Both the position numbers and the translations under genes were made by a program. This document shows positions 17,421 to 32,816 of a DNA stretch of 64,000 bases, in pieces. How positions within the stretch are numbered: position 1 is the first letter of the stretch; every line of letters begins with the position of its first letter. Where the stretch lies: positions 124,001-188,000 of the forward strand of contig NZ_JAJTNP010000001.1 of the NCBI RefSeq assembly GCF_021311115.1. The letters run 5' to 3'. Source of the stretch: Chryseobacterium gwangjuense (GTDB taxonomy: Bacteria; Bacteroidota; Bacteroidia; Flavobacteriales; Weeksellaceae). The notes under the pieces were generated by a model, which was not told where the DNA came from, made no database searches, and was given only the letters and a program-made list of their open reading frames with translations.

Positions 17421-17960
17421 ATGTTGAAATTCATTGTTGTATTTTGTTCTTTACTCTCCATTCAGGCATTTGGTCAGAAAATAAGTTGGAGAGAAGATCT
17501 TAAACTTAAATGGGAAAATTTTCAAAGCCCGATTAACGGAAGAACTAACTCTGATGTAGTGGCTTATACCCATTGCGGATGGGAATATTCTGTGATAAAA
17601 TCCAGTAATCCCAAAGCATCGATTGAATTTAATATTGAAACAATATTTAACGAAGATAAATCCTGGAAAGACACGAAAAGAATCAATGATTATGTGCTTT
17701 TACATGAACAAAAACACTTTGACATTGCTGAAATATTTGCCAGAAAATTAAGAAAAGAAGTTAAAGAAAAAATTAAAACATCTTCTGATTACGATAAATA
17801 TTTTAAAGGGATTTATAACAAGATTTCAAACGATTATAAGAACTTTCAGATTACCTACGATAAAGCCACTGATCATGGTATAAATAGAGAAAAACAAGCA
17901 GAATACAACGAATTAATATCTTCCGAACTGGAAAATTTAAAAAACTTTAAAACCTCTTGA
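17421..17960 (+). CDS. DUF922 family protein, putative zinc-dependent protease
   Basis: 179-residue secreted protein; the start at 17421 gives a proper signal peptide (MLKFIVVFCSLLSIQAFGQ). The frame is open 12 codons upstream, but that part overlaps the previous gene. The motif HEQKHFD (His95, Glu96, His99) is the HExxH-type site of the DUF922 family, annotated as zinc proteases. A catalytic role is inferred from that motif only. It overlaps the next gene by 4 bases (TTGA), which suggests translational coupling. Confidence 0.78.
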   Translation: MLKFIVVFCSLLSIQAFGQKISWREDLKLKWENFQSPINGRTNSDVVAYTHCGWEYSVIKSSNPKASIEFNIETIFNEDKSWKDTKRINDYVLLHEQKHFDIAEIFARKLRKEVKEKIKTSSDYDKYFKGIYNKISNDYKNFQITYDKATDHGINREKQAEYNELISSELENLKNFKTS

Positions 17961-20650
17961 AGTTCCTCAACAAAATTATTAACGAATTATTAGCTCAAAG
18001 TTCTGATCTTTCCGAGTTTAATATTGTATTGCCGGGAAAACGTCCCATCGTTTTTATCAGAAGTATTTTAGAGGAAAATAACTATTCAGGGTTTTTACCC
18101 AATTTTTTTACGGTAGAAGAACTTATTAATCAAATTGCAGATAAGCAGCCTATTCAGGGGATTTCGTTGTGGCTTTTTGCTTATGATGTATACAAAAGTC
18201 TTAATCTGATTCCAAGAGACAGTTTTTCAGATTTTTTAAAATGGTTTCCTACGTTGCAGAAAGACTGGGATGACATTTTAAAGTTTTCTGAAAGCGATCA
18301 GACTGTGTTGCAATATATGTTCGATGAAGAACGAATTAAAGACTGGGCACAGGATTTGGGAGAAGATGATGATGTTCCCAGAAAAAAGTTCTTAAATTTT
18401 TGGAAGAATATGAATGTTTTTCTTCCGGTTCTCAAGCAGAAATTGCAGGAGAAAAACTGGGCTACTTCTGGAATGATTCACGAAACGGCAAAAGCTGAAA
18501 TTGATCATTTTGCTAAAAATACGAAGGAAAAGTTTGTTTTTTGTGGTTTTAATGCCTTTACTCCGGTTGAAGAAAAGCTGGTAAGAAGTCTTTTACAGTG
18601 GGATAAAGGGCAATGTTTCTTTCAGGCGGATCATTATTATTTTGATGATGAAAGACAGGAAGCGGGGAAGTTTTTACGAAATCATAAAACCTGGAAAGAA
18701 TTCAACGATCACAGAGCTTTTAACTGGATTGAAGATGATTTTAACCAGCCCAAAAACATAAAAGTATATGAAGTTTCAGGAAACATTACCCAAACGAAGG
18801 TTTTGCCTGAAATTTTTAAGGAAATAGAAAATAAGACTTATTCCAATACAGCGGTTGTACTTCTGGATGAGAATTTGCTTCCGGCAAGTTTAGATGTGAT
18901 GTACGGAGTTCCAAATCTGAATATTACAATGGGGTTTCCATTGAAAAATCTTTCGTTTTCTAATGCAGTCAAACAGCTTTTTTACCTTCAGAAACAGCTT
19001 GAAAAGAACAAATCTTCTTACTATTATCGCGATGTTTTTCCTATTCTTGAAGAACTTCCGAAATCTACTGAAGATGAATTGGTGATCAATCAATTTAAAG
19101 CTAAAGTAGAGGAGAGGAATATCGTTTACATATCAAGAAAACTATTGCAGGAACTTTTAGGAGAACTTTCTTATTATAACTTGCTGCAGAAAGCAGATTC
19201 TACGACTGTTTATTTAGATTCTTTAATTGATTTTTGCAAGAAAGTAAAATGGTTGGAAATAGATGATATACAATATGAAAACGTATCTCACTTCGAGAAT
19301 TCCTTTAGAATTATAAAAAACCAGCTGAGTCCGTATGATTTTGAAATTACGATGGAAACATTGGAAGTTTTAATCAATCAGCATATCAATTCTGAGAGTA
19401 TAGATTTTCAGGGAGAACCCTTAAGAGGACTACAAATTATGGGGCTTTTGGAAACCCGTTTGCTGAATTTTGAGAATGTCATCCTGCTTTCGGTAAATGA
19501 AGGGAAGTTGCCACTCGGAAACTCTCAGAATACCTATATTCCGTTTGATATCCGAAAGTTTTTTGATCTTCATACGTTTTTAGAGAATGACAGTATTTAT
19601 GCCTATCATTTTTATCGTTTGATTCAGGATTCCCAGAATGTGCATTTGTTGTTTAATGCACTGAGTTCGGGAGTGAATTCAGGAGAAAAAAGCAGGTTTA
19701 TTACTCAGATCGAAATGGAGAGTACTCATAGCATTGAACATTTAATTATTGAAAATTCATCCGAGCCCATTATAACCGAACCTGTTGAGTTTATAAAAAC
19801 ACCTGTAGTCTTAGAGAAACTCGAAAAATGGAAAGAAAAAGTTTCGGCTTCACACCTTACAAGTTACCTGTACAATCCTGTTGATTTTTATCTTTCCAAG
19901 ATTTTAAATACTTCCGAAAACGATGAAATTGAAGAAGAATTATCCGTTAAAAATTACGGAAATCTGGTACATTATACCCTTCAAGAAGTATATGAGGTTT
20001 TAAAAGGTAAGGTATTAAAAGAAAATGATTTAAAAGATTCAATTAAAGGGATAGATAAATATATTAATATTGCGATCGATAAGCTGAAACATCAACCTGA
20101 ATTCTATGAAAAAGGAATGAACTTCATTCATAAAGCTATTGCTAAAAAAGTGATTGAAAGTATTCTGAATTATGATCTTGATCTGGTAAAGAAAGGTAAT
20201 AAACTGGAAATTTTAGATATTGAAAAACGATTTGAAAATGTAGATTTCTATCTGGATGAATCTCAAAAAATATCATTATTTGGATTTATTGACCGAATCG
20301 ACCGATTAAATGGAACCTTAAGAATTATTGATTATAAAACCGCAAAAATCAAAAACCTGATCGTCAAAATTGATCAGGACAATGTTGAAGAATATTTTCA
20401 TAACAGCGATCGAAAACAAGCTTTACAGCTGTGCATTTATCAATATGTGGTACAGAATCTTCCTGAGTTTTGGGGACTTCCGATAGAAACGGGAATCTGG
20501 AGTTTTGCAGAAGCTAGAAAAGGGGTGGTTTCTCTGCAATTTGAGAAGGGAAATATTGATGATGCCATGAAATCTATTAAAAGTTTAATTGAAGAAGTTC
20601 TGAATCCGGAAATTAACTTTATTGAGGAGATTAAAACGTATTCAAATTGA
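17957..20650 (+). CDS. AddB-like PD-(D/E)XK nuclease
   Basis: 897-residue protein with the build of the Bacteroidota AddB-like subunit: a long N-terminal part related to superfamily I helicases without a normal Walker A, and a C-terminal nuclease domain. The nuclease site is visible as GFIDRIDRL, then Asp792-Tyr-Lys794 in IIDYKTAK, then QLCIYQYV. Such proteins pair with an AddA/RecB-type helicase-nuclease for double-strand break processing; no partner is in the window. The start is a TTG overlapping the DUF922 stop. No in-frame ATG close by gives a better N-terminus. Confidence 0.82.
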   Translation: MKFLNKIINELLAQSSDLSEFNIVLPGKRPIVFIRSILEENNYSGFLPNFFTVEELINQIADKQPIQGISLWLFAYDVYKSLNLIPRDSFSDFLKWFPTLQKDWDDILKFSESDQTVLQYMFDEERIKDWAQDLGEDDDVPRKKFLNFWKNMNVFLPVLKQKLQEKNWATSGMIHETAKAEIDHFAKNTKEKFVFCGFNAFTPVEEKLVRSLLQWDKGQCFFQADHYYFDDERQEAGKFLRNHKTWKEFNDHRAFNWIEDDFNQPKNIKVYEVSGNITQTKVLPEIFKEIENKTYSNTAVVLLDENLLPASLDVMYGVPNLNITMGFPLKNLSFSNAVKQLFYLQKQLEKNKSSYYYRDVFPILEELPKSTEDELVINQFKAKVEERNIVYISRKLLQELLGELSYYNLLQKADSTTVYLDSLIDFCKKVKWLEIDDIQYENVSHFENSFRIIKNQLSPYDFEITMETLEVLINQHINSESIDFQGEPLRGLQIMGLLETRLLNFENVILLSVNEGKLPLGNSQNTYIPFDIRKFFDLHTFLENDSIYAYHFYRLIQDSQNVHLLFNALSSGVNSGEKSRFITQIEMESTHSIEHLIIENSSEPIITEPVEFIKTPVVLEKLEKWKEKVSASHLTSYLYNPVDFYLSKILNTSENDEIEEELSVKNYGNLVHYTLQEVYEVLKGKVLKENDLKDSIKGIDKYINIAIDKLKHQPEFYEKGMNFIHKAIAKKVIESILNYDLDLVKKGNKLEILDIEKRFENVDFYLDESQKISLFGFIDRIDRLNGTLRIIDYKTAKIKNLIVKIDQDNVEEYFHNSDRKQALQLCIYQYVVQNLPEFWGLPIETGIWSFAEARKGVVSLQFEKGNIDDAMKSIKSLIEEVLNPEINFIEEIKTYSN

Positions 20651-20672: not shown

Positions 20673-20829
20673 TTAACGCAAAGGTAAATTTTTCACTGAT
20701 TATATTTAAAGGAGCAAAGAATGAATCAACAAGTTGATTGGATGAAGCTTCCGATATAGCTTCGCGAAGCAATTTATTGCCTTTGCTTTCTGAAAATAAA
20801 AATAATACTAATTATTCTTTGCGTTTAAA
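20673..20829. repeat. Dispersed palindromic repeat, CGCAAAG family (copy 1)
   Basis: About 157 bases bounded by AACGCAAAG (20675-20683) and its complement CTTTGCGTT (20817-20825). Inside are AAGGAGCAAAGA, a perfect 7-base stem AATCAAC / GTTGATT (20724-20739) and the palindrome GCTTCGCGAAGC (20759-20770). A relative with the same layout lies at 32661-32816. It is non-coding, between the AddB-like gene and the acyl-CoA dehydrogenase gene. Confidence 0.75.
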
Positions 20830-32542: not shown

Positions 32543-32619
32543 TTGTCATTCTGAAAGAAGCGAAGCGTAGTGAAGAATCTTTATTATTAACTAGATTCCT
32601 CGTTCCTCTGAATGACAAA
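32543..32619. repeat. Dispersed repeat, GTCATTCTGA family (copy 1)
   Basis: Bounded by TTGTCATTC and its complement GAATGACAA, with GAAGCGTAGTGAAGAATCT inside. The same start appears at 63939, cut by the window end. Similar GTCATTCTGAACG elements are common in intergenic spaces of many bacteria. Confidence 0.7.
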
Positions 32620-32660: not shown

Positions 32661-32816
32661 TTAACCGCAAAGATTTAGAAAATGAGAAAACATTATTTTA
32701 AGGAGCAAAGATTGAATCATTACAATTGATTTTATAAAGTGAGCTTAATCAGCAACTTTGTTGCAAGTCTTAGTTTCTTAAAATCAAAAAAAATGTAAAT
32801 AAAAACTTTGCGTTAA
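32661..32816. repeat. Dispersed palindromic repeat, CGCAAAG family (copy 2)
   Basis: Begins AACCGCAAAG (32663-32672) and ends CTTTGCGTTAA (32806-32816). Inside are AAGGAGCAAAGA, the hairpin AATCA / TGATT (32715-32731) and GCAAC-TTT-GTTGC (32752-32764). The layout parallels copy 1 at 20673-20829, but the last hairpin has a different sequence. Confidence 0.75.

Follow-up and report, generated by a model that had tools for sequence, protein, structure and literature searches.

A dispersed structured repeat of Chryseobacterium, linked at one locus to a GxxExxY gene, as a putative miniature mobile DNA element

REPINs are miniature intergenic hairpin elements that show compensatory changes and form tandem clusters (PMC3116915, PMC2817692). 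Their cognate genes, the RAYTs, encode HUH/Y1 (IS200/IS605-like) proteins; they are single-copy genes possibly moving REPINs in trans (PMC3116915), and are flanked by inverted REPs (PMC2817692). MITEs are likewise short and non-coding, with terminal inverted repeats and empty sites. In the Bacillus cereus group, the dispersed repeat bcr1 is ~155 bp long, keeps a secondary structure and is mobile, and it is not known to have a partner gene.

Here we describe a repeat family with two copies in a 64,000-nucleotide stretch of the Chryseobacterium gwangjuense genome (the window, meaning the whole stretch analysed). It shares with REPIN/RAYT the intergenic hairpins, the compensatory changes, the tandem clusters, a single-copy cognate gene beside an element, the flanking of that gene by inverted copies, and distinct elements for distinct genes. 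It differs in its size (~155 bp), in combining three arms with two nested inverted repeats, and in its putative partner, a protein assigned to the PD-(D/E)XK superfamily (PF13366/TIGR04256, here GxxExxY). Since the plan is close but the protein unrelated, we do not class it as REPIN/RAYT. It resembles MITEs in all the features named above, but has no clear target-site duplication and no parent transposase that we noticed, and its arms covary; bcr1 belongs to another phylum. To our knowledge GxxExxY (TIGR04256), a widespread family, has no known function, and the open-access literature we searched gave neither a function nor a repeat partner for GxxExxY/PF13366. Searches there on repeats, REPs and MITEs of Chryseobacterium, Flavobacterium and Bacteroidetes did not find the element family (in part only top results were read), although a name may exist in subscription papers; the main text of PMC12306157 mentions neither Chryseobacterium nor RAYT.

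Window copies and the element family

The initial annotation had reported two copies, at 20673-20829 and 32661-32816, with common ends and a common order of parts, and this held. The heptamer by which it named the family, CGCAAAG, is not enriched on its own (5 matches in the window vs 4.88 expected), whereas the longer core AGGAGCAAAGAWTGAATCA, allowing up to 3 mismatches, has 2 matches vs 0.14 expected, both in the two copies. The second inner hairpin that it saw kept in both copies also held, AATCAACAAGTTGATT (20724-20739) answering to AATCATTACAATTGATT (32715-32731). Its matching of the other hairpin held only in part, as the copy 1 register had to be corrected: GCTTCGCGAAGC (20759-20770), taken as the copy 1 hairpin, runs from the end of P4 into the start of P5 and is out of register, and the counterpart of GCAACTTTGTTGC (32752-32764) is GCAATTTATTGC (20769-20780). 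In the features below, the minus strand given for each whole copy is the one corresponding to the GxxExxY-gene strand of the copies that lead such genes.

20673..20829, minus strand: element copy 1, type A (BLAST; covariance model match G000:C1:144707-144793:-, E 9.8e-12; empty orthologous sites)
20675..20683, plus strand: copy 1 P1 left, outer inverted repeat AACGCAAAG, pairing with 20817-20825
20710..20719, plus strand: copy 1 P2 left, AGGAGCAAAG, its GCAAAG pairing with CTTTGC at 20781-20786
20724..20739, plus strand: copy 1 P3 hairpin, AATCAACAAGTTGATT
20745..20762, plus strand: copy 1 P4 hairpin, AAGCTTCCGATATAGCTT
20759..20770, plus strand: copy 1 GCTTCGCGAAGC, the hairpin first proposed, overlapping P4 end and P5 start
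20769..20780, plus strand: copy 1 P5 hairpin, GCAATTTATTGC, in register with GCAACTTTGTTGC of copy 2
20781..20791, plus strand: copy 1 P2 right, CTTTGCTTTCT
20817..20825, plus strand: copy 1 P1 right, CTTTGCGTT
32661..32816, minus strand: element copy 2, with a P5 arm of type B as in copies L011 and L012
32663..32672, plus strand: copy 2 P1 left, AACCGCAAAG
32700..32711, plus strand: copy 2 P2 left, AAGGAGCAAAGA, pairing imperfectly with TCTTAGTTTCTT at 32768-32779
32715..32731, plus strand: copy 2 P3 hairpin, AATCATTACAATTGATT
32736..32746, plus strand: copy 2 P4 remnant, AAAGTGAGCTT
32752..32764, plus strand: copy 2 P5 hairpin, GCAACTTTGTTGC (GCGACTTTGTCGC in copy L012 of the same genome)
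32768..32779, plus strand: copy 2 P2 right, TCTTAGTTTCTT
32806..32814, plus strand: copy 2 P1 right, CTTTGCGTT

The gene to the left of copy 1 (17957-20650) carries a PD-(D/E)XK domain (PF12705) at its end, with no known link to the element. Just before copy 2, at 32544-32619, lies a different dispersed inverted repeat (TGTCATTCTGAA...GAATGACAAA), which in relatives occupies sites without the element or the GxxExxY unit (L180 and L181; at the GxxExxY locus, L282-L284 and others).

The copies belong to a family of ~155-bp elements built from an outer inverted repeat (AACGCAAAG/CTTTGCGTT), an inner repeat (GCAAAG/CTTTGC) and three hairpins. Read on the GxxExxY strand, the consensus runs AACGCAAAG (P1), ~25 nt, AAGGAAGCAAAG (P2), GCGACaaaGTCGC (P5), AAGC..GCTT (P4), AATCAATttATTGATT (P3), CTTTGCTCCCTT (P2'), ~25 nt and CTTTGCGTT (P1'); in type A elements P5 is GCAAATnnATTTGC. 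BLAST finds 13 places, some of them partial, in the C. gwangjuense genome (3.49 Mb, 14 contigs), and a covariance model finds 17. Across the genus the model matches in 93 of 98 genomes (1338 matches, median 10); 13 of its 60 training sequences came from GxxExxY loci, and at most 42 candidates were scored in each genome. A pattern scan of named genomes returned at least 117 stretches, the first 80 being 78 from Chryseobacterium, one from Epilithonimonas and one from a Bacteroidales MAG. No Rfam covariance model reached its gathering threshold in the window, and the 7 matches that 10 loci gave at E <=5 were all below gathering, with none to Flavo-1, an RNA listed in PMC2864571; identity with an Rfam family, Flavo-1 included, is therefore rejected. 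Elements also occur in tandem arrays, with 5.2 units of 328 bp in L061 and 4.8 units of 201 bp in L026. Such multiple or tandem copies were seen at L061:492-2198, L026:2711-3649, L120, L122 and L127, and the 328-bp unit also contains another repeat (CTGATCTGCGAGAGAAAATATC...).

Copy 1 is an insertion. Its site was compared by eye in 29 relatives' loci, seven of which (L182, L183, L186, L187, L188, L191 and L192) have both neighbours without the element. The rest comprise two with another repeat at the site (L180, L181), 19 with another left neighbour, and L197, where a family element stands beside another left neighbour. This result is for copy 1 only. No ORF of at least 100 codons contains any of 112 elements, and orientation relative to tandem host genes is random (23 vs 27 of 71 placed elements).

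Covariation and the nature of the folded form

The initial annotation had read, in two copies, paired changes that keep the pairing, had proposed a covariation test over many copies, and had named independent decay as what would refute selection on structure. As two copies cannot prove covariation, we tested 60 inner cores. We found 95.5% of cells paired vs 93.0% after shuffling, 50 cells changed on both sides vs 15.9 +/- 6.4 (none of 500 shuffles as high), and a covariation score of 0.117 vs 0.073 +/- 0.004 shuffled and at most 0.040 in slid controls; sliding the structures by 1-3 columns dropped pairing to 26-42%. One of five measures, the number of further pair types, was not above shuffles (18 vs 17.5; 242/500). 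Type B elements (57 copies) gave 96 double-change cells vs a shuffle mean of 37.5 and maximum of 51, and type A elements (55 copies) covaried weakly (15 vs 5.5, maximum 12); for both subtypes the structures were predicted from the same alignments as were tested. Covariation within the family is thus real: the paired changes held over many copies, and independent decay is disfavoured, double changes in the mixed set and in type B lying above all shuffles.

Several features of the sampling qualify these numbers. The locus scan required AATCAANNNNTTGATT behind AGCAAAG, and further filters wanted near matches to P3 and the inner repeat, so that the choice of loci partly favoured those arms, though not P5 or the innermost P3 pair. 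Support comes mostly from P5 and P3, P2 and P4 being nearly invariant, and the shuffles ignore kinship. From the mixed alignment of 60 sequences RNAalifold recovered P3 alone, because the P5 register differs between the two subtypes.

Whether the structure is kept in RNA or as a DNA cruciform had been left undecided in the initial annotation. Selection on one RNA strand would tolerate G-U more than A-C mismatches. Interior 1x1 mismatches in 112 elements showed no G-T excess (24 G-T vs 30 A-C), and folding energy, sense minus antisense, was -0.09 +/- 0.61 kcal/mol (SE); the corresponding figures for 37 GxxExxY leaders were 15 vs 19 and -1.24 +/- 1.14. We infer that this strand symmetry fits DNA cruciforms better than RNA, which is not excluded. 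The test leans towards DNA without a positive control, since ARAGORN found no tRNA in the window or in the 117 loci (L021-L137, mostly 8 kb) around elements. That is fewer tRNAs than we would expect, whether from avoidance or from an effect of the tool.

Linkage to a GxxExxY gene at one locus

The linkage of the family to a GxxExxY gene was invisible to the initial annotation and is shown at one locus. Both GxxExxY genes of the C. gwangjuense genome stand directly behind such an element, one of this family and one of another family with the same layout. MTENELSYKIIG-type genes in the first 31 loci retrieved have an element immediately upstream in one orientation. These genes form a single orthologous locus between what we take to be cutC-like and mannosidase-like genes (by reading, without a family search), and we compared it in all 96 genomes where it was located. 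The gene is intact in 40 genomes, absent in 46 and a remnant in 10. All 40 intact genes have a complete element upstream, with its right end (CTTTGCGT, at most 1 substitution) within 110 nt, vs none of the 46 gene-less loci, seven of which have a lone right-end match; among the remnant loci, two keep a complete element and six the right end. Decay of the gene is seen directly in G024, where element arms persist before a C-terminal gene fragment. The 40 pairs represent one inherited locus, not 40 independent events.

A narrower pattern gives 38 strictly intact cases, in 37 of which the CTTTGCGTT end has its first base 24-84 nt upstream of the ATG. The 37 leaders at the orthologous locus have a mean identity of 63.5% (minimum 42%), and their proteins 78%. 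P3 lies near the gene in 30 of them; six are a longer variant, in which those inspected carry a P5-like arm instead of P3, and the search pattern truncated five at the inner repeat. The CTTTGCG of the right end loosely resembles the flavobacterial -7 box TAnnTTTG (PMC9723704), and it is possible that the element end carries a GxxExxY promoter.

The gene product is a full-length member of TIGR04256/PF13366 (149.2 bits for TIGR04256 vs a cut-off of 35), and within the genus PF13366 is present in 92 of 98 genomes. The median dN/dS of 0.09 (401 pairs with pS <0.7) shows purifying selection, and thus that the protein is maintained. Its putative active-site residues D67, E77 and K79 are invariant in 32 diverse members. 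The protein is nuclease-like by sequence, with this conserved D-E-K and an assignment to the PD-(D/E)XK superfamily; nuclease activity is inferred, not shown. A fold model from a two-sequence alignment was unusable (pLDDT 35.8), and the best PDB profile matches were weak (E 0.13 and 0.84). In viral contigs a single-protein query found no GxxExxY gene and an alignment query found two; a phage collection gave no match.

Element copies are more numerous where the gene is intact, with exceptions. Excluding the leader, the median number of matches is 19 in the 40 genomes with an intact gene vs 7.5 in the 56 without (p 1.5e-6), and all five genomes with zero matches lack an intact gene. When genomes were paired greedily with their nearest relative by the cutC-like fragment (distance <=0.22), the gene-bearing genome was higher in 26 and lower in 6 (p 5e-4); in close pairs only (distance <=0.12) it was higher in 9 and lower in 4 (p 0.27). 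Seven genomes with 19-33 matches have no gene trace at the locus (G091, G062, G013, G055, G071, G047 and G097), G097 having no PF13366 match at all, and G074 has 20 matches with a broken gene.

Inverted repeats also accompany other GxxExxY clades. At 70 loci of the genus, 205-nt leaders fold below their shuffles (mean z -3.0 vs -0.68 in upstream and -1.35 in downstream controls); this holds strongly for the NELSYK clade (mean z -4.66) but not for every clade. The upstream and downstream flanks of the gene match each other in inverted orientation above the control 95th percentile at 26 of the 70. By a cut-off for inverted repeats in leaders, whose control stretch was compromised by tandem elements, 13 loci have a leader repeat, 25 only a bracket and 32 neither; 22 of the last are NELSYK-type genes that carry the element by sequence, and with these set aside ten loci have no leader repeat and no bracket.

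At the level of the phylum, PF13366 occurs in 39 of 80 genomes. Among 28 new, best-scoring loci, 25 genes were readable by ORF pattern, and 17 of these lie between inverted repeats that score beyond the 95th percentile of controls with swapped partners (p 4e-12). Over the 25, the mean inverted flank match score is 19.8 vs 10.6 for swapped partners, and the comparison with 37 other ORFs gives p 3e-8. Direct-orientation matches are as strong (mean 22.1, no swapped control), because both sides often hold entire palindromic elements, as judged by reading the loci; the bracket thus consists in part of such elements flanking the gene. The repeat units are ~10 nt, e.g. CACAGAG. Five of nine GxxExxY genes on plasmids or viral contigs exceed all controls, including those of Gemmatirosa, Bernardetia and Bacteroides. 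Dispersed copies are also known for other leader families: three lie elsewhere in the C. gwangjuense genome, and in G142 six copies, counting the query, form an array around the gene, with four partial ones on other contigs; no dispersed leader copies were found in G125 and G205, whose repeats differ.

A proposed explanation and its rivals

On balance, and by a modest margin, we favour the view that the window repeats are orphans of a miniature mobile DNA element whose partner is GxxExxY, on a plan like that of REPIN/RAYT; mobilisation by the partner is inferred. The first step, that the element can fold into a four-way figure with conserved pairing (outer inverted repeat, spacer, inner repeat and three arms), is shown. 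The figure would arise when the DNA is single-stranded or extruded as a cruciform, during replication or upon supercoiling. GxxExxY, with its invariant D-E-K, would then recognise the folded arms and nick or cut the element DNA, and repair or re-insertion would produce new intergenic copies in trans, gene and element persisting together. In this view the cognate copy would be the leader of the small GxxExxY gene, as REPINs lie beside RAYT genes. No experiment supports the DNA form, the binding or cutting of the element by GxxExxY, or its causing the spread; all three are inferences. If true, the proposal would mean a first role for a protein family that is abundant but of unknown function, would explain common dispersed repeats of Bacteroidota, and would bring a non-HUH nuclease fold into the range of miniature mobile systems. 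The family offers a natural set of covarying, putatively cruciform elements for asking how proteins read DNA shape, and the copy-number and linkage results make the proposal directly testable.

A bolder reading, for which the case falls a little short, is that GxxExxY acts as catalytic partner to a large class of structured inverted repeats that lie dispersed, a PD-(D/E)XK counterpart of REPIN/RAYT that reads cruciform shape. Each protein clade would keep its own repeat, and hairpins would therefore persist while sequence changes.

The rival that survives best, and remains possible, is that the element is an ordinary MITE whose transposase is unknown or lost, and that a copy inserted early before GxxExxY and was then kept. 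It is supported by the terminal inverted repeats, intergenic dispersal and insertion polymorphism, by gene linkage at one locus only, by the gene-free genomes with many copies, and by flank matches that are weakly in excess at offsets 4-6 (z at most 4.3), although we found no clear case of target-site duplication. Against it stand the retention of the element at 40 of 40 intact genes despite the divergence of the leaders, the tracking of copy number with the gene, and the inverted repeats around or before the gene in other GxxExxY clades; nor was a longer element with the same ends noticed, in the absence of a systematic search.

A structured RNA leader controlling GxxExxY, with the protein binding its own mRNA and the dispersed copies being by-products or tuning other genes, is unlikely. 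The single orientation, the spacing of the right end from the ATG and the strong folding of NELSYK leaders speak for it. Against it, there is no G-U excess on the mRNA strand (by a test without a positive control), the orientation of orphan copies to host genes is unbiased, and no Rfam family is above threshold in the window.

We consider it very unlikely that the elements are bidirectional transcription terminators or RNA-processing hairpins. They are stable intergenic hairpins and copy 1 lies between convergent ORFs, but flanking gene orientations of 71 elements (++ 36, -- 14, +- 11, -+ 10) show no convergent preference, on which ground a terminator role is rejected, and three arms with two nested repeats exceed what a terminator needs. 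Independent palindrome decay without selection on pairing, for which one may cite the many pairs that never vary, the weak covariation of type A and the null result for further pair types, is all but excluded by the double changes and by the collapse of slid structures.

Two other gene families were rejected as partners of this element. RAYT is ruled out in that the two Y1_Tnp genes of the C. gwangjuense genome carry another repeat; they are nearly identical (L019 and L020; G000:C10:74030 and C1:568417), with their own flanking repeat (CCGCTGCCGCGCGA...TTTCGTGTGGC). None of nine IVP/four-helix-bundle (PF05635) genes of the same genome (L138-L146) carries the element. Six of the nine are bracketed by inverted repeats above every swapped control (p 5e-4), and IVP may possibly be a second partner family with the same layout.
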